A stretch of 64,000 nt of DNA, from the NCBI GenBank assembly GCA_017643165.1, contig JAEPNY010000003.1, forward strand, positions 62,001-126,000, in the 5' to 3' direction. The notes below the pieces were generated by a model. It worked only from the letters and a program-made list of their open reading frames with translations. It ran no database searches and was not told where the DNA came from. The position numbers and the translations under genes are program-made. Numbering within the stretch: the first letter of the stretch is position 1; the number at the start of each line of letters is the position of its first letter. The stretch comes from Psychroserpens sp. (GTDB lineage: Bacteria; Bacteroidota; Bacteroidia; Flavobacteriales; Flavobacteriaceae). Shown here in pieces: positions 4,258-10,939 of this stretch.

Positions 4258-5214
4258 CTAATCCCATTGCTTTAATGTGGTACTTAATCCTTGGTAGAGG
4301 AATACGGCATTGATATTCCCATTTGTAAGTGTATCTGTATCTCCACCATCTCCCCAGCCATAAACCGTTCCGGTGATGTATTTAAATCCTATACTTAGAC
4401 TTGAGAAAATAGCGAGATGCCCTTCGTTACTTGTTGCTGTCGCATTACCTTTAAGAACAAAGTGGTTGTATTCATCATTATGTTGAGGTAAAGTACTTCC
4501 AATGGTATTATATATTCCAAACTCGTCACCTTCAGAGACTTTTACTTTTGTATTTGATGCGTTATTTGCCCAAGAATAGTATTTAAAAGCGAATAAGTAA
4601 CTCGCTTCTGGAATGGTATGGCCATTTCTATTTGCTAAAAGTGCATTTCCAGAATTAGGTTCAATATTGGCATTACTTTGAATATGATTGTCGGTCGCTC
4701 CACTTTTGGTGACTTGAGCTAAATAATTTGCCAAGTCATTATACTCACTTTCGGTTACCATGATCCATTCGCCAACACTTGCATTGTCATACGCGCTTCT
4801 TGAACTATTCAAAAATGCGGCAATGTCGTCTACGTTATTAATATTTATGATGACCAGTTTGTTTTCAGTTTCAGTACCATTACTAATTTGAACGGTAGCT
4901 GTAAAGCTTGTACTCGTTTCATAATCATACATTAACCAATCCAATACGCGCATTTCTCCTGACGAGCTGTTGATGTCGAATGCTTGTGATACCGATTGTG
5001 AAGTTATGCTAAACGTTAAGTTACCAGATAGACTTGAAGTTACAGTTGTTATAAGGTCTCCTGAATTTGGGTACTCATTGATTGATACCTCTACATTTGT
5101 TGTTGATTGTAGATTGTTTGCGTCATCATCCTCACTGCTGCAAGATACTGTGATAAACAAAATTGATACTAGGCAAAGTCCTAATTTAAATGAGTTGGTG
5201 ATTAAAGATTTCAT
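4258..5214 (-). CDS. Cadherin-like-domain lipoprotein
   Basis: The product is a 318-residue predicted surface or periplasmic lipoprotein. MKSLITNSF begins a signal peptide that ends at SILFITVSC, followed by SSEDDD. The open frame extends 30 codons upstream through an atypical GC-richer leader, so the Met at 5214 is preferred. Residues of about 45-125 resemble one cadherin-type repeat (AFDINSSSGEMRV, then LMYDYETS, TFTATV-like and a closing ININNVDD). The C-terminal half of about 180 residues is not recognised. It lies downstream of a GTGGAC repeat array that may place it under the neighbouring LuxR-type regulator. The function is unknown. Confidence 0.75.
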   Translation of the reverse strand: MKSLITNSFKLGLCLVSILFITVSCSSEDDDANNLQSTTNVEVSINEYPNSGDLITTVTSSLSGNLTFSITSQSVSQAFDINSSSGEMRVLDWLMYDYETSTSFTATVQISNGTETENKLVIININNVDDIAAFLNSSRSAYDNASVGEWIMVTESEYNDLANYLAQVTKSGATDNHIQSNANIEPNSGNALLANRNGHTIPEASYLFAFKYYSWANNASNTKVKVSEGDEFGIYNTIGSTLPQHNDEYNHFVLKGNATATSNEGHLAIFSSLSIGFKYITGTVYGWGDGGDTDTLTNGNINAVFLYQGLSTTLKQWD

Positions 5215-5325
5215 AATAAGAATGTTTTGTGGTTTGTTTAAATCGTTTTTGTAGCGTCTTGCAGCTGGCAAGTCTGCAGCCCATACCAGAGCAAGGCACC
5301 ACAAAACTGGTTGTCAACTTAATGA
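5215..5325 (-). promoter_or_regulatory. Structured 5' leader candidate
   Basis: Between the predicted transcription start and the Met at 5214 lies a leader of about 110 bases whose middle is clearly GC-richer than the surroundings. GTTTTGTGGT (5224-5233) is the exact reverse complement of ACCACAAAAC (5298-5307). Inside, CTTGC (5258-5262) can pair with GCAAG at 5268-5272 or alternatively at 5291-5295. I do not recognise a known riboswitch family. Confidence 0.35.
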
Positions 5326-5330
5326 CAGCA

Positions 5331-5362
5331 CAAACATATCTGTAAGCTTTTGTGAATCAAAA
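5331..5362 (-). promoter_or_regulatory. Promoter of the cadherin-like lipoprotein gene
   Basis: On the reverse strand TTTTG (5358-5362) is followed after 19 bases by TATGTTTG (5331-5338). This is a full Bacteroidota promoter (TTTG, 19-base spacer, TAnnTTTG). The GTGGAC array begins 8 bases upstream of its -33 element. Confidence 0.65.
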
Positions 5363-5370
5363 GATTATGA

Positions 5371-5420
5371 GTGGACAATACGTGGACGTCCACTAAATAT
5401 CATCTGGACAATTGGTGGAC
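5371..5420. promoter_or_regulatory. GTGGAC operator array, 11-bp phased (left array)
   Basis: Hexamers GTGGAC start at 5371, 5382 and 5415, with CTGGAC at 5404. The spacings are 11, 22 and 11 bp, close to whole helical turns. The copy at 5382 is part of the perfect palindrome GTGGACGTCCAC (5382-5393). The array lies directly upstream of the -33 element of the lipoprotein promoter and 22 bases past the stop of the TPR-LuxR regulator gene. I infer that it is a binding site for that regulator. Confidence 0.5.
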
Positions 5421-5441
5421 GTTATAAATTAAGTCGCTGAA

Positions 5442-7376
5442 TTACAGCTCTATAACTAATTCTTGTAATGAATCTTCTGTAGACAGATTCAACTTCTTAC
5501 GTAGACGATAGCGTGCCTTTTTTACACCTTCCGTAGAAATATTTAGAATATTGGCGATTTCCTTCGAAGATAGATTCATCTTGAGTAATGCCATTAATCG
5601 CAGATCGTTCGGCGAAACTTCCGGAAATTGCCTTTTTACTTTTGAATTAAATCCTTTATGTACATCTTCAAAATAGGATCTAAATTGCTCCCAGTTGTTA
5701 TCATTGTTGATGTCGAGATTAATGGTATTAATTACTCTTTGGTAATGTCTGCCGTTATCTGAGTTCAACTTTAACTCATTCAACTGTGATTTCAAATCCA
5801 ATAAGACTTCATTTTTGTGTGCTAAATGTAAGGCATGCGTAGTCAGTTCTTTTTCTTTGAATTCAAGAGAGGCATCCAATTTCTCACGTTCAATTTTATT
5901 GCGCTTCATTTTCTGTCTGATGCCATAAAATAATAGCAACCCTAAAAGCACTATCGATATAATACCAATGACTAACAGTAGTTGTCTGGATTTAGAAACT
6001 TTTTCTTGTTCTTCCAATAATTCAATTTGAGATTTTTGAAGTGCAATCTCTTTTTCTTTTCGATTGGTTTCAAAAATGATCTTTTGTTCTTGTGCTAGCT
6101 CAGTTCTCATATAATTATTTAGAGAATCTTTAGCATCACTACTTTCTTGTAATTCGTTGTAGGCATCATTGAGTTTTCCAAGTTGTTTTAATGCTTTGGA
6201 TTTATAAAGTTTAGACCAACTAATATTTCGAAAGGAGTCATTACTCTCAGCAATCTCTAGGCATTTGTTGAAATTCTTTAAGGCGTCTTCTGGTTTGTTA
6301 CGTTTTAGATTTAATTCGCCTAATGTCATATTATAATTATATAAGACTGTCGTAATCATTTGATCTTCCTCTTTGGCGACTTCATCAAGATATTTTTTGG
6401 CTTCAACTAAATTGTCTCGTTTTTTTTCTAGTTCGGCTAGTTGAATTAAGGTTAAGGCTAAATTTCTTCTTAGTTTAATTTCTTTGGAAGTCTCAAGAGC
6501 CAGATTTAAATTAGTCTCAGCTTCGTCCAATTGGTCCAATTCCATTTGTGACATTGCCTTAATTCTATAAAGCTGCGCTATCATATTTTTTTGACCTACC
6601 TGTTCAGAAATATCTATTCCAATATCAAATTGTTCAATGGCCTTTTCGTGTTCGAAAATTTCTTGATATAAACTACCAACTTTATAATACGCTTGCGGTA
6701 AATAAAAGGAGTCTTTGAATTGCTCTCTAAGTTCAATAGTCTCAAGCATTTTTTGAATACTGATATTCCGAAATCCTCTCTTTAGGGCTATGGAGCTTCT
6801 GTGCTCTAACATACTCGCCATTAGAGAGGAATCTTTATAGCGTATGGCGACAGGTTCAATTTCATCTACAAGGCCTTCATATCTTGAAAGGTCATCTGAG
6901 ATCAGACCTACTAATATGGTGAGGTTAGATTTAATGGTTGCTCCAAAAATAGTGTCTCCTATTTTCATAAACTCATCACCAGATCGTTCTAAATAGACCA
7001 TTGAAGAGTCATAGGCGCTTTGCGTGTAATAATAATTCGCTTTCATAGCGAATAAATTAGCCTTGCCGCGTTCATACGACTTTATTTTATAAATGGCTTC
7101 AGCACTATCAATATAGGTTTTAGCTAAAGCTGGATCTTGATAAACGATTGTTTCAGCTAAAGTCAATTGTGCATTGGCTTTAATACTATCATTTTCCGTA
7201 GTCTTTATGACCTGTTGAAGACTATCGATCTCTTTTTCCAATTGCGCAGTTGCGGAAAATGGAATAAATCCTATAAACAATAATATGATCAGTATTCTAT
7301 AAATGTCCACCTGTAAGTAGACAAGTTTTGATTTTGCGATAATTGGGACAATTGAAAGTCGATAATTAAGATCCAT
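5442..7376 (-). CDS. Membrane-anchored TPR / LuxR-type transcriptional regulator
   Basis: This 644-residue protein combines an N-terminal hydrophobic signal or anchor (about 25-45), tetratricopeptide repeats (about 50-420) and a transmembrane helix (about 465-486). After a coiled-coil-like linker comes a C-terminal LuxR/GerE helix-turn-helix (about 587-640; SSKEIANILNISTEGVKKARYRLRKKL). It contains no histidine kinase or receiver domain, so it is likely a one-component sensor whose TPR part faces the periplasm and whose DNA-binding part faces the cytoplasm. The residue-1 ATG is kept although the N-terminus precedes the hydrophobic segment by about 22 residues. The gene is flanked by GTGGAC arrays on both sides, which suggests local control of the neighbouring surface-protein genes. 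Confidence 0.85.
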   Translation of the reverse strand: MDLNYRLSIVPIIAKSKLVYLQVDIYRILIILLFIGFIPFSATAQLEKEIDSLQQVIKTTENDSIKANAQLTLAETIVYQDPALAKTYIDSAEAIYKIKSYERGKANLFAMKANYYYTQSAYDSSMVYLERSGDEFMKIGDTIFGATIKSNLTILVGLISDDLSRYEGLVDEIEPVAIRYKDSSLMASMLEHRSSIALKRGFRNISIQKMLETIELREQFKDSFYLPQAYYKVGSLYQEIFEHEKAIEQFDIGIDISEQVGQKNMIAQLYRIKAMSQMELDQLDEAETNLNLALETSKEIKLRRNLALTLIQLAELEKKRDNLVEAKKYLDEVAKEEDQMITTVLYNYNMTLGELNLKRNKPEDALKNFNKCLEIAESNDSFRNISWSKLYKSKALKQLGKLNDAYNELQESSDAKDSLNNYMRTELAQEQKIIFETNRKEKEIALQKSQIELLEEQEKVSKSRQLLLVIGIISIVLLGLLLFYGIRQKMKRNKIEREKLDASLEFKEKELTTHALHLAHKNEVLLDLKSQLNELKLNSDNGRHYQRVINTINLDINNDNNWEQFRSYFEDVHKGFNSKVKRQFPEVSPNDLRLMALLKMNLSSKEIANILNISTEGVKKARYRLRKKLNLSTEDSLQELVIEL

Positions 7377-7523
7377 GTTTTGTGGTGGTTAGTTAAACGA
7401 ATATAAGAACAAATCCTGCAAGATTATAAAATATTGAAAATCAATATATTAAATTTTAAAACTTGTGAATTTTATTGCTATTATAAAGATGGTCAATAAT
7501 TGAATTTGTTCTTTTTTTTGAAA

Positions 7524-7540
7524 GTGGACAAAGGGTGGAC
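7524..7540. promoter_or_regulatory. GTGGAC operator pair, 11-bp spacing (right array)
   Basis: GTGGAC occurs at 7524-7529 and 7535-7540, again 11 bp apart. The pair lies 38 bases upstream of the candidate -7 box of the T9SS protein-barrel-fibre operon, and between that operon and the divergent regulator gene. The shared hexamer and spacing with the left array make a common DNA-binding protein plausible. Confidence 0.5.
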
Positions 7541-7577: not shown

Positions 7578-7585
7578 TACCTTCG
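7578..7585 (+). promoter_or_regulatory. Weak -7 box of the T9SS protein-barrel-fibre operon
   Basis: TACCTTCG departs from TAnnTTTG at one base and lies 21 bases before the start at 7607. The -33 region is a T/C tract without TTTG. A weak core promoter just downstream of the GTGGAC pair fits dependence on an activator, which is inference. Confidence 0.35.
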
Positions 7586-7606: not shown

Positions 7607-8104
7607 ATGTCATATCAAAACTGGATTATTACAAGTTTAATGCTCTTCGTCTTAATCGGATCAGCTCAAACTTTAAAACGGCAATCATTAGGTGTTCAAG
7701 GATCAACACAGTTGGTCTTTGCTTACACTAAAAGTTATTTCATTCAAGAAAGTATTGGACAAAAAAGTGTTATTCGAACTTATGAAGCGAATAACTATAG
7801 TTTACGTCAAGGGTTTCTACAACCTATTGATGGTGCAATTATTTCTGAAAATCTGGACAACGAATTAACGGGCTTCTTTTACCCTAATCCCTTTATCGAT
7901 CATGTTAATGTGCAATTTGAAGAACCGATAATAGATATCATAACGGTTACGATGCATGATATTTTAGGGAGGTTGGTCTACAATGAAACCTTTAATCCAA
8001 TGCAATCACTTACGATCAATTTTGGTGATCTAAGTTCGGGGAGTTACATATTCAGACTTCAAATGCGTTCAGAAGTCATGATTGCAAAACTGGTTAGACG
8101 ATAG
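7607..8104 (+). CDS. Small T9SS type A sorting-domain protein
   Basis: This 165-residue secreted protein has a signal peptide (MSYQNWIITSLMLFVLIGSAQ) and a short conserved part with SIGQKSVIRTYE and LRQGFLQP. The C-terminus is a type A T9SS sorting domain: NPF.D near residue 95, DILGRLVYNE, LSSGSYIFRL and a terminal KLVRR. The start at 7607 is chosen because the longer frame begins with a GTG inside the GTGGAC repeat. Proteins of this short layout are common beside outer-membrane barrels in Bacteroidota, but their role is not established. It is the first gene of a tight operon with the next two. Confidence 0.8.
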   Translation: MSYQNWIITSLMLFVLIGSAQTLKRQSLGVQGSTQLVFAYTKSYFIQESIGQKSVIRTYEANNYSLRQGFLQPIDGAIISENLDNELTGFFYPNPFIDHVNVQFEEPIIDIITVTMHDILGRLVYNETFNPMQSLTINFGDLSSGSYIFRLQMRSEVMIAKLVRR

Positions 8105-8106
8105 TT

Positions 8107-8754
8107 ATGAGACGATTAGTTTGGATAATATCGTTGACATTGTCAATGCAACTCAGTGCGCAGCAATTGTATATGGAAATAGGTAAAACAAGTTCTGGTT
8201 TTGACTATCAAAATTCTGTGGGTCAAACCCTAGAGAATTTACAATCGACCTCTCAAACGTATTTAAAATTGGGATATCGTGATGTATTAAATAATTCCGA
8301 GACTTTGCACTTTTCATTAGGAGCTACTTACAACGGCTATGGTGCTATTGGAAGTGATCCTGTTTTGGATAATTTCTTCGAATGGGACGTGACTTACGTA
8401 GGTGTAGAAGCTGGTCTCGACTTCCGAATCTTTAGACTTCGTGATTTCTCATTTTATGTGAAGGGTTTGGCGTCTTCTGAATTCCTGATTCAAGGAAATC
8501 AAACCTTGAATAATCAGGTGTTCAACTTGGTAGGAGAAGAAGAATTCAATAACACGATTTTCTTTCTAAAAGGTGGACTAATGATGTCATATCCCATTTC
8601 AAGAAATACCCTTATTACAGCAAATTACACGATTGGAAAAACAGCCTTGTTGGATCAAGGTAATGAAACAGATAATGAACAATTAAAACTTACGGCACAT
8701 CAATTTGGATTCGGAATAATCATAAGTCTCCCAGATTGTAACTGTCCATTTTAA
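8107..8754 (+). CDS. Predicted outer-membrane beta-barrel protein
   Basis: The 215-residue product has a signal peptide (to about LSAQ at residue 19) and then alternating amphipathic strands ending in aromatic residues, such as TYLKLGYRDV, LHFSLGATYNGYGA, DFSFYVKGLA and FFLKGGLMMSYP. This is typical of a small outer-membrane barrel. The last residues contain two cysteines (DCNCPF). It starts 2 bases after the T9SS protein gene and ends 10 bases before the fibre gene. It may anchor or display its partners; no specific family is recognised. Confidence 0.7.
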   Translation: MRRLVWIISLTLSMQLSAQQLYMEIGKTSSGFDYQNSVGQTLENLQSTSQTYLKLGYRDVLNNSETLHFSLGATYNGYGAIGSDPVLDNFFEWDVTYVGVEAGLDFRIFRLRDFSFYVKGLASSEFLIQGNQTLNNQVFNLVGEEEFNNTIFFLKGGLMMSYPISRNTLITANYTIGKTALLDQGNETDNEQLKLTAHQFGFGIIISLPDCNCPF

Positions 8755-8764
8755 ACCAAATATC

Positions 8765-10939
8765 ATGAAGAAAATTACGCTATTAATTACGTTATTTATG
8801 ACCTCACTTTTTGTGAATGCACAAACTGATGGGATCAATTATCAAGCGGTTATAATTGACAATAATCCGCAAGAAATTCCTGGTGTAGATATACCATCCA
8901 ATAACTTACCTAACAAACCCTTAGAAGTTCAATTTACGATCTTTGAAGATGGAAATACAATTGTATATCAGGAAACACACCTTACCGAAACTGATCCTTT
9001 CGGAATGATCAATTTAATGATCGGACAAGGGTCCATAACAGGTTCAAGTCCCGCCTTATTTGAACAGATTTATTGGGATAATCCAAAACAACTGCGCGTA
9101 GAAATCGACTTATTCGATGGGAATGGATTGGTAGTCTTCAGTAATCAGAACTTAACCTACATTCCTTATGTTCGTCATCGCGAAATTATAGCAACTTCGA
9201 CTTTGGATGTTGATGGTGAAACTAATTTAAATAATAGTTTATCGGTAAATAACGAAAGTCCTACATATTTGTCTGGTGCATTAACAGTTGATGGTGAAAC
9301 CAATTTAGGTAATGCGTTGAACGTAAATAATCAAAGTACGACAACCTTTACTGGCGACTTGTTTGTATTAGGAACGGCTTTCTTCACCGATGGTGTTTTT
9401 GATAACCTCACAGTAAATCTGCATTCTAACTTGAATACTGTTACGGCAGATGGAGAAACTAATATCAATAATGAATTTAATGTAAATAATAACAGTTCAA
9501 CATTTTTGTCAGGGCCATTAAATGTTGAAGGTGATTCTAATCTCTATAATAGTTTAAATGTATATGACGCAAATCCTACTGCGCTAACAGGGAATCTCAC
9601 TGTTGATGGCATCTCAAACTTTAATAACAGAATTAGATTAAATGTGAATTTAGATCAAGATGACGAGGATGACTATGAAGCTTATCCGCTGCAAGTCGCT
9701 GGAAGCAGCCAAGGTATAGCTGTGAAATTGAATGCTAATGATCCTAACAGAACAAATAATTACATTTCATTTTGGAGTAATAATAATATTGCACGCGGAC
9801 GCATTGAAGGAAATAATGAATTAGAATCGATTTCTCGAGATCTGGTATTAGATCTGTTGGTGCCTCCTGGATTTGACGATCTGATCCCAGTTGGTGATGA
9901 TGAACCTATTCCAAGTGCATTTGCTAACGACTATTTTAATAATGACTATGCTTTTGGAGCCTATCATTATACTATTGATTTTGTCTTTTCTATAGGTCGT
10001 TTTGGGATTAATCTCACGGCAGCTTCAGGTGCTTGTTTGGCTGGTGACTGTGATGATGCCATTTGGTCTTTTATAGATATGTCCATTGATGGTATTCAAT
10101 TAGCAGAATATATTTTATACAATCAAATGAGTATTGGTGTTGCGTTTGAATCTGGGAGTGCCGATTACGCTGAATGGTTAGTAAAGGAAAACGCAGATGA
10201 AGTATTAACATTCGGAGATGTTGTTGGTGTAAAAGGAGGTTCGATTTCTAAAGAATTTAGAACTGCAGAGAATTATATGGTGGTATCACAAAACCCATTG
10301 ATAAGTGGAGCAATGCCTCAAAAAAGCGAAGAGCATCTTTATGAACGCATCGCATTTATGGGTCAAGTACCAGTGAAAGTAATCGGAAAGGTTAATAAAG
10401 GAGACTATATTTTACCTTCAGGAGCAGGTGATGGATTAGCTATAGCAATACCTGCAAAATCGATGAAAGTCAATGACTATAAAAATATTGTCGGTGTCGC
10501 ATGGGAATCTTCTCCTGGAGACCAGTTATTCGCCTATGTCAATACCGCAGTAGGTATTAACTCCAATGATATGGTTGGGCAAATTGAACAAATGCAATCC
10601 TTAATGAACCAAATGCAGCGATCAATTTCAAAATTAGACGCGTCTTTCGAACCCGTTTATTTTGATCTTGATGAGAACTCAGAATTGCCATCACGAAATG
10701 ATGCAACAGTAATTGATCTTAGAGAAGAATTGAACCATGGGCAGGAAGCCAATAAAGAAAAATTACAGCGTTTAATTAATGAAACTAATAAGCGCTTTAA
10801 AAATCATGAATTTGATTTTTCTAGATTTCCATATTTAGAAGAAACATTAAACAATCCTACAAAAGAGAATGGCGAAAAATTAGCGAATTATTATATGAAT
10901 CTCTATCATCGATTAAAACAGATCGAGATTAAGCGATAA
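8765..10939 (+). CDS. Tail-fibre-like surface protein with peptidase G2-like autoproteolytic domain
   Basis: This 724-residue secreted protein has a signal peptide (MKKITLLITLFMTSLFVNAQ) and an N-terminal Bacteroidota fibre-type domain (DGINYQAV to LTYIPYV, about 22-140). Five imperfect repeats built on DGETNLNNSLNVNN follow at about 146-290. At about 465-615 is a region starting ADYAEWL and continuing with GDVVGVKGG, MVVSQNP, FMGQVPVKV, YILPSG and VGVAWESS. This pattern recalls the intramolecular-chaperone (peptidase G2) domains of phage tail spikes. A coiled-coil-like C-terminus completes it. It probably forms a trimeric fibre on the cell surface. No phage genes surround it, so it is a cellular protein in an operon with a T9SS protein and a barrel. 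Confidence 0.7.
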   Translation: MKKITLLITLFMTSLFVNAQTDGINYQAVIIDNNPQEIPGVDIPSNNLPNKPLEVQFTIFEDGNTIVYQETHLTETDPFGMINLMIGQGSITGSSPALFEQIYWDNPKQLRVEIDLFDGNGLVVFSNQNLTYIPYVRHREIIATSTLDVDGETNLNNSLSVNNESPTYLSGALTVDGETNLGNALNVNNQSTTTFTGDLFVLGTAFFTDGVFDNLTVNLHSNLNTVTADGETNINNEFNVNNNSSTFLSGPLNVEGDSNLYNSLNVYDANPTALTGNLTVDGISNFNNRIRLNVNLDQDDEDDYEAYPLQVAGSSQGIAVKLNANDPNRTNNYISFWSNNNIARGRIEGNNELESISRDLVLDLLVPPGFDDLIPVGDDEPIPSAFANDYFNNDYAFGAYHYTIDFVFSIGRFGINLTAASGACLAGDCDDAIWSFIDMSIDGIQLAEYILYNQMSIGVAFESGSADYAEWLVKENADEVLTFGDVVGVKGGSISKEFRTAENYMVVSQNPLISGAMPQKSEEHLYERIAFMGQVPVKVIGKVNKGDYILPSGAGDGLAIAIPAKSMKVNDYKNIVGVAWESSPGDQLFAYVNTAVGINSNDMVGQIEQMQSLMNQMQRSISKLDASFEPVYFDLDENSELPSRNDATVIDLREELNHGQEANKEKLQRLINETNKRFKNHEFDFSRFPYLEETLNNPTKENGEKLANYYMNLYHRLKQIEIKR

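Follow-up and report, generated by a model that had tools for sequence, protein, structure and literature searches.

Do the GTGGAC hexamers that flank a regulator gene of Psychroserpens sp. (Flavobacteriaceae) serve as operators for the protein encoded between them? The question arose from a sequence-only reading of a 64,000-nucleotide stretch of DNA (assembly GCA_017643165.1, contig JAEPNY010000003.1, positions 62,001 to 126,000), hereafter the window, which had proposed a local operator code read by the LuxR-type helix-turn-helix (HTH) domain of a membrane protein with tetratricopeptide repeats (TPRs). Few bacterial regulators are as common as HTH proteins of the LuxR/NarL type, yet the DNA they target can rarely be predicted from sequence. 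Our comparison with relatives suggests, with a probability of roughly 85%, that this membrane TPR-LuxR protein is a one-component activator which binds hexamers phased at 11 bp as operators beside two promoters, that of a lipoprotein gene and that of an operon for a type IX secretion system (T9SS) protein, a putative barrel and a fibre-like protein. The central elements are the following.

5442..7376, reverse strand: regulator of 644 residues, with signal anchor, TPR solenoid, predicted transmembrane helix, flexible linker and C-terminal LuxR/GerE-type HTH
5371..5420, forward strand: putative operator array of four half-sites in phase 0/11/33/44, seen in the sequence and with its phase repeated in relatives; GTGGAC at 5371, GTGGAC at 5382, CTGGAC at 5404 and GTGGAC at 5415 (steps of 11, 22 and 11 bp)
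7524..7540, forward strand: putative operator pair GTGGAC-N5-GTGGAC, half-sites at 7524 and 7535 (step of 11 bp)

Every hexamer coordinate and all 11- and 22-bp spacings reported earlier were found again in the sequence. The left array begins about 20 nt past the regulator stop codon and runs in reverse orientation relative to the lipoprotein gene; the right pair is in forward orientation relative to the T9SS operon. Single GTGGAC hexamers are not enriched in the window (14 vs 12.1 expected), and therefore only phased pairs were followed. The exact pair GTGGAC-N5-GTGGAC occurs twice in the 3.14-Mb genome, both times beside the regulator gene, with about 0.1 pair per genome expected by chance as estimated from the hexamer rate and none found with the reversed-pattern control. 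When one mismatch was allowed, four sites were detected in the genome, three of them at this locus, and four with the control. The sequence-only reading had also pointed to a palindrome in the left array. GTGGACGTCCAC at 5382-5393 is indeed a perfect one, but relatives carry different sequences at the same place, e.g. GTGGACACTCC, GTGGACAGTCC and GTGGACACCTT, so the palindrome is incidental and was rejected as a conserved element.

To follow the repeats in relatives, we collected 127 distinct regulator homologues from 118 loci (L062-L179) and the window; these rows are related to each other, and the loci were drawn partly because the system is present in them. An identical hexamer pair at 11 bp was found within 200 nt past the stop codon in 74 of the 127 rows and at 33 bp in 50, while each of the remaining spacings from 7 to 39 bp occurred in 1 to 14 rows and the shuffles gave 1 to 9. 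The 0/11/33/44 phase of the window recurs in other genera. The check proposed along with the sequence-only reading, a search for the repeats beside orthologous regulators, was thus positive in many genera with the same 11/33-bp phase, and the retention of this phase agrees with the idea that the sites lie on one face of the helix. Six loci (L080, L118, L123, L124, L144 and L157) contain two regulator homologues each, often with a recognisable array directly behind just one of them.

The part of the regulator that would contact these sites was located with an AlphaFold2 model, built from 33 sequences with a mean pLDDT (predicted local distance difference test score) of 82.

5493..5534, reverse strand: recognition helix, residues 615-628 (TEGVKKARYRLRKK), placed by the model and by a gapless alignment with NarL 1je8
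5508-5510, reverse strand: Tyr623, the code residue, within the recognition helix of the model

TPR helices occupy residues ~63-398 in the model and are followed by a long helix (402-503) and a C-terminal tetrahelical HTH of GerE type with helices at 589-599, 604-611, 615-628 and 637-643. The Pfam scan of the regulator returned TPR matches and no receiver domain. Because there are two hydrophobic segments, at residues ~28-46 and, inside the long helix, ~466-484, the TPRs presumably lie in the periplasm, with a single membrane crossing and a cytoplasmic HTH. The best match of the HTH in the PDB is EL222 (E 0.004), and those to NarL (E 0.85) and EsrB (E 0.65) are weak. The NarL match has equal lengths on both sides and no net gap; by this alignment Tyr623 falls on what we take to be NarL Lys192 and a base contact, with NarL sequence and numbering likewise assumed.

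Recognition helix and half-site vary together among the homologues. Helices of the form KKAR-Y are accompanied by GTGGAC, those with -Q by GGGTAC, those with -N by GGTGAC and those with PG...Q by GGAGAC/GTATAC. When exact pairs were counted, 59 of the 90 rows with a Tyr helix had GTGGAC and two had GTAGAC, one had its pair on the other strand and 28 had none; the 23 Gln rows were divided between GGGTAC (12) and none (11), and all five Asn rows had GGTGAC. There was no cross-over between the codes. Nine of the 127 rows had no parsed helix, and these yielded GGGTAC beside a Gln fragment, GCGGAC and a shifted-frame ATGGAC-type array (one each) and no pair in the other six. Seven of the motif-less Gln rows carry Pro before the helix glycine, and they are matched by GTATACC-TTTGTC-CCCC, which corresponds to GGAGAC-N5-GTATAC. 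One of these seven, L151_1, is a partial protein and stands outside the stricter table of 115 rows, which required at least 550 bits and a parsed helix and accepted a motif when at least 10 of its 12 letters agreed. In this table the expected motif was recognised in 5/5 Asn, 13/16 Gln, 6/6 Pro-Gln and 69/88 Tyr regulators, the last with two further ties; the single discordant case is a weak one (L147_6, Tyr, 10 of 12 letters). Markov-shuffled flanks gave full matches in 0 of 115 rows for each code and matches of at least 10 letters in 2-5 of 115.

Thirteen loci combine regulators with more than one code; in 10, every regulator is found with its own motif. The other three (L147, L160 and L179) each include one Tyr regulator with no motif or a weak discordant one. 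A divergent subfamily with the helix LPDSVLKSKY is paired with ATGGAC in L100, L101, L185, L186 and L187. In L095 a Gln-type regulator is split across two frames, with a GGGTAC array still downstream. The joint variation of recognition-helix residue and hexamer tag suggests a small natural lock-and-key code for surface-protein switching. The proposal that the HTH reads the arrays thus gains comparative support, and the code, described earlier as local, extends across the family.

We then turned to the promoters that the arrays would serve.

5358..5363, reverse strand: -33-like element CTTTTG of the lipoprotein promoter, recognised by sequence, 7 bp from the left array
5331..5338, reverse strand: -7 box of the lipoprotein promoter, TATGTTTG, with the closest half-site 32 bp away
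7578..7585, forward strand: -7 box of the T9SS-barrel-fibre operon, TACCTTCG, with the right pair ending 37 bp upstream

We take CTTTTG to be a -33 element from the Bacteroidetes -33 consensus. Passages of PMC9723704 give TAnnTTTG at -12 to -5 as the sigma-A box of F. psychrophilum. A structured leader, described below, forms the start of the lipoprotein mRNA, and 53 places with a similar leader were examined for their promoters. Five of them had no box by the pattern, three of which (L065, L152 at 4882 and L171 at 20823) are false leader matches, and L105 had no listed half-site, which left 47 places. The distance from the nearest half-site to TAnnTTTG, or a close variant, is 32 bp in 42 of the 47 and 43 bp in the other 5, whatever the code. 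At T9SS/barrel promoters the pair has the opposite orientation, and in 22 of 31 rows TAnnTT follows its end after 37 bp; another row proved to be a fortuitous hit within a gene, and that from L087 ended before the position of the box. With the box at -12 to -5, the half-sites are therefore at about -45 to -50 and outward, beside the -33 element, and this position suggests activation.

To see whether shared ancestry alone could account for the match, trees were calculated from the sensor only, with the HTH left out; 77 rows have both traits. The code residue changed 18 times on the FastTree tree and 17 times on a tree from a short (quick) IQ-TREE search. All independent pairs on supported branches were concordant with the operator, 9 of 9 on the former and 10 of 10 on the latter (p-values of 0.004 and 0.002). 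By region, 20 code changes were counted on the TPR tree, 11 on the linker tree, which is short (88 residues) and noisy, and 3 on the HTH tree. More changes on the TPR than on the HTH tree are expected if HTH modules and their arrays have been exchanged between sensors. At T9SS/barrel promoters at least 2 kb from the HTH codons, GGGTAC is found beside Gln regulators in 3 rows and GTGGAC beside Tyr regulators in 26, and this match of distant sites with the regulator code argues against block recombination alone. Two more T9SS/barrel rows with GTGGAC (L064 and L082) had no regulator in the stretch fetched.

Several observations weigh against the arrays being operators of this regulator. No recognisable array was found in the stretch examined for 16 of 88 Tyr and 3 of 16 Gln regulators (19/115). 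GTGGAC alone had been predicted beforehand; the rows on which the code was scored also supplied the remaining hexamers. The Pfam GerE match of the HTH (E 6.6e-5, 22.9 bits) is just below the cut-off of 23.5, and the AlphaFold2 model leaves linker residues 499-553 unresolved. Moreover, the HTH codons adjoin the downstream array, to within ~200 bp, so that block recombination alone could keep the match. The arrays might then be read by some other DNA-binding protein, with HTH and array hitch-hiking by adjacency, and the order of the trees, with the fewest code changes for the HTH, then the linker, then the TPRs, would be expected if array and 3′ gene end travelled as one block. We nevertheless regard another reader as quite improbable. 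The code match extends to T9SS/barrel promoters that lie beyond the opposite gene end or several kilobases away, although just 3 of these distant rows differ from GTGGAC; the varying residue sits in the recognition helix of the model; and in all 9-10 independent pairs a changed helix comes with a changed half-site. That the repeats arose by chance, or function at the RNA level, perhaps within a terminator, would agree with the chance frequency of the single hexamer in the window and with a search of 299 family genomes, in which exact pairs with any spacer were hardly commoner than controls (61 GTGGAC pairs in 34 genomes vs 45 with the reversed control; 45 GGGTAC pairs in 34 genomes vs 54; both summed by hand). 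We give this practically no credence, since the pairs are unique in the genome, the spacing peaks at 11 bp, the code table and the fixed geometry hold, and no shuffled flank among 115 had a full match. The sites also lie upstream of the -7 boxes and hence outside the transcripts served, and conservation and phase already contradict chance and an RNA role alike.

Another question is the sign of regulation. The regulator might bind the arrays and repress both promoters, or activate one and repress the other; we consider this unlikely, if worth keeping in mind. The half-sites adjoin -33 and could block polymerase, and the two promoter classes differ, with sites in opposite orientation relative to the promoter, 32 bp away in the reverse and 37 bp away in the forward arrangement. 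The opposite orientation also counts against the main reading. In addition, a conserved site in the 5′ coding end of the regulator lies downstream of the presumed promoter, a position that would more readily suit repression. On the other hand, the nearest half-sites leave -33 and -7 free, a typical place for an activator, the spacing is exact to the base pair in 42 of 47 cases, which repression does not need, and the T9SS-type promoters have no good -33 element by eye.

As an activator, the regulator would place one HTH on each hexamer, and two adjacent HTHs would read GTGGAC-N5-GTGGAC. The second hexamer pair, three helical turns off, would lie on the same face. Bound beside -33, probably in response to a periplasmic signal, the regulator would activate both the lipoprotein mRNA with its structured leader and the T9SS/barrel/fibre operon. 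The hexamer would be set by the residue at the helix centre (Tyr623 here; Tyr, Gln or Asn in relatives) and by the residue before the helix glycine, so that paralogous regulators in one genome could address their own targets. A wider interpretation, to which we give slightly better than even odds, combines a readable recognition code within one family, HTH-operator modules swapped between periplasmic sensors and a switch-like leader layer. The code would then read E/D-G...Y for GTGGAC, D-G...Q for GGGTAC, V/A/S-G...N for GGTGAC, P-G...Q for GGAGAC/GTATAC and LPDS...Y for ATGGAC. If this is true, each genome would hold insulated sensor-operator-leader-lipoprotein cassettes with the leader RNA as a second layer of control. 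Repeated co-variation of helix and operator at fixed geometry would allow targets to be predicted and a residue swap to be tried cleanly, and it opens a sequence-based route to how marine Flavobacteriaceae control their surface lipoproteins and T9SS-secreted fibres.

The leader itself was characterised by model matches, folds and covariation.

5217..5328, reverse strand: structured 5′ leader RNA of the lipoprotein mRNA

It has a hairpin, P1, and a long hairpin whose loop, GGCUGCAGAC, is conserved, and the 5′ arm has two alternative partners. A search with Rfam 15 gave no match above the gathering threshold in the window and two tRNAs alone in seven other leader loci; the only sub-threshold match of the window leader is mir-182 (E 2.1), and a known riboswitch or other Rfam element was rejected. 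Our leader model R1 gave 77 matches in 70 selected sources, one of them antisense of another, and 53 matches in 32 of the 299 family genomes. After exclusion of three antisense overlaps, 40 of 50 leaders were located directly downstream of a regulator, 3 were divergent and 2 convergent within 2 kb. The remaining five had no regulator among the matches listed; one of them, L180, has an Asn regulator and a GGTGAC array, and no regulator was present in the 5-9 kb fetched around the leaders of L181-L184. Across 76 distinct rows, including the antisense one, double changes were seen in 12 of 20 pairs, in 42 cells compared to 8.6 in shuffles and 2-14 in slid controls, in an alignment fitted to the model. 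The leader is thus a covariation-supported candidate for a new RNA class.

Two mutually exclusive pairings are open to the 5′ arm GUUUUGUGG, one with a near copy and one with the far partner ACCACAAAAC, which is located directly before the start codon. Such an arrangement would suit a translational switch. It is nearly an even call whether the leader instead does no switching and serves simply as a stabilising hairpin or as the target of an RNA-binding protein. Near and far pairings might reduce to one used structure, and minimum-energy folds favour the near pairing in 21 of 28 cases and the far one in 7 of 28. Both partners are nonetheless retained, with the near helix paired in 90.4% and the far helix in 96.4% of cells over the 76 rows.

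The genes under the two promoters, and a further site within the regulator gene, are as follows.

4258..5214, reverse strand: target 1, cadherin-like surface lipoprotein (MKSLITN...TVSCSSEDDD); Cadherin match of 19.9 bits, below the cut-off of 28.8
7607..8104, forward strand: target 2a, short T9SS type A sorting-domain protein, with ATG at 7607
8107..8754, forward strand: target 2b, open reading frame for a 215-aa protein, called a barrel in the sequence-only reading
8765..10939, forward strand: target 2c, 724-aa fibre-like protein, by a weak NCBIfam match
7305..7322, reverse strand: GTCTAC-N6-GTGGAC in the 5′ coding end of the regulator (+54/+66), candidate autoregulatory site

A longer reading frame for target 2a, from the GTG at 7535, would begin inside the operator. 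Target 2b had no match in Pfam, NCBIfam or PHROGs. The match of target 2c is to the N-terminal domain of a Bdellovibrio mosaic adhesive trimer fibre (E 4e-4, 20.2 bits vs a cut-off of 60); a phage origin of the fibre operon was rejected, as no PHROGs match was found. For the products downstream of leaders in relatives, 50 leaders were taken, i.e. the 53 minus the three false ones, and 44 of them had a downstream open reading frame by a simple rule. A strict lipobox pattern was present in 36 of the 44, and BLAST sorted the proteins into five groups and two singles. Six of ten neighbour proteins (L063, L066, L067, L069, L079 and L083) contain a Thiol_cytolysin domain of Pfam, which is cholesterol-dependent cytolysin (CDC)-like; CDC-like toxins are treated in passages of PMC11169675. 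With Thiol_cytolysin neighbours elsewhere and a cadherin-like protein here, one control module therefore appears to serve unrelated surface proteins.

The reverse-strand GTGGAC at 7305-7310 in the regulator gene, noticed earlier, is present as described. A GTGGAC is found at exactly +66 in 18 of the 88 Tyr-type regulators, of which 17 carry a T9SS-side pair at -152 to -166 as well; in one more, L078_4, it is at +71. The start-region sites of the regulator are at +66/-164/-153. The +66 hexamer is retained in relatives whose regulator diverges from the T9SS/barrel operon, and its distance to the T9SS-side operator is nearly fixed at 218-221 bp. When 16 start regions were aligned, one of which is mis-started, most rows had TGTCC at ~+27 and TGTCTAC at +54. 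The +66 site is a plausible feedback site, and the GTG of its GTGGAC may be the real start codon.

Searches that started from the motif led back to the same system when the spacer was restricted to AANNN. For GTGGAC, 26 of 29 such pairs (counted by hand) were beside a regulator, leader or T9SS/barrel operon. For GGGTAC, 13 of 17 belonged to this system, and 11 of the 17 directly followed a regulator gene, with Gln in all 11 regulators; at least 6 of these were already in the exact-pair table. The remaining six GGGTAC pairs comprise one upstream of the L181 leader, one ~2.2 kb from a regulator (genome G247, L220), those of L216, L221 and L222, and a sixth in genome G130. L181 has a leader and a GGGTAC array with no regulator in the 9 kb fetched, and it may be a target in trans, because a Gln-helix regulator is located elsewhere in the same genome (L218). 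The non-AA-spacer pairs of L062, L097, L098 and L099 all lie inside open reading frames, and no regulator match was found near them. Three genomes (G097, G316 and G161; loci L050, L051 and L059) contain several tandem arrays each of the GTGGACTCAST type with an 11-bp period; their spacer is unlike that of the operator, and they are a different kind of repeat.

How does this regulator compare with known systems? No title on a GTGGAC regulator motif or a TPR-LuxR operator was found among those listed, with subscription journals and preprints outside this scope. BT_3442 of Bacteroides thetaiotaomicron is encoded beside MACPF genes; passages of PMC2954219 describe it as a TPR protein whose gene cluster includes lipoproteins and putative pore formers, and they mention no operator. 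The C-terminal 88 residues of our regulator match the end of the corresponding family model (NF053779) with 25.7 bits against a cut-off of 940. We claim no membership in BT3442, MalT or ComA proper. MalT of E. coli is a soluble ATPase with a TPR-like sensor region and a LuxR HTH, and it reads tandem asymmetric sites containing GGA. The regulator resembles MalT, as generally understood, in its TPR-like sensor region and LuxR HTH; no ATPase match was obtained, and TPR_MalT reached 23.4 bits vs a cut-off of 45. By its GerE-type HTH the protein belongs with the LuxR/GerE (NarL/FixJ-type) proteins. The sites of NarL are inverted heptamers, and unlike NarL the present regulator is presumably membrane-bound, lacks a receiver domain and would read direct repeats at 11 bp. 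The nearest mode of binding described so far is that of ComA of Bacillus subtilis. ComA is a soluble, phosphorylated response regulator, and the Pfam scan gave no sign of such an architecture here. According to passages of PMC4797271, ComA has a LuxR/NarL-type HTH and activates promoters through direct repeats of the form hexamer-N5-hexamer, with n = 5 optimal. ComA reads TTGCGG and has no TPR sensor or membrane anchor, and those passages describe no half-site code among paralogues, whereas such a code probably exists in the system described here. Like the ComA sites, its operators consist of two identical hexamers with a 5-nt spacer.

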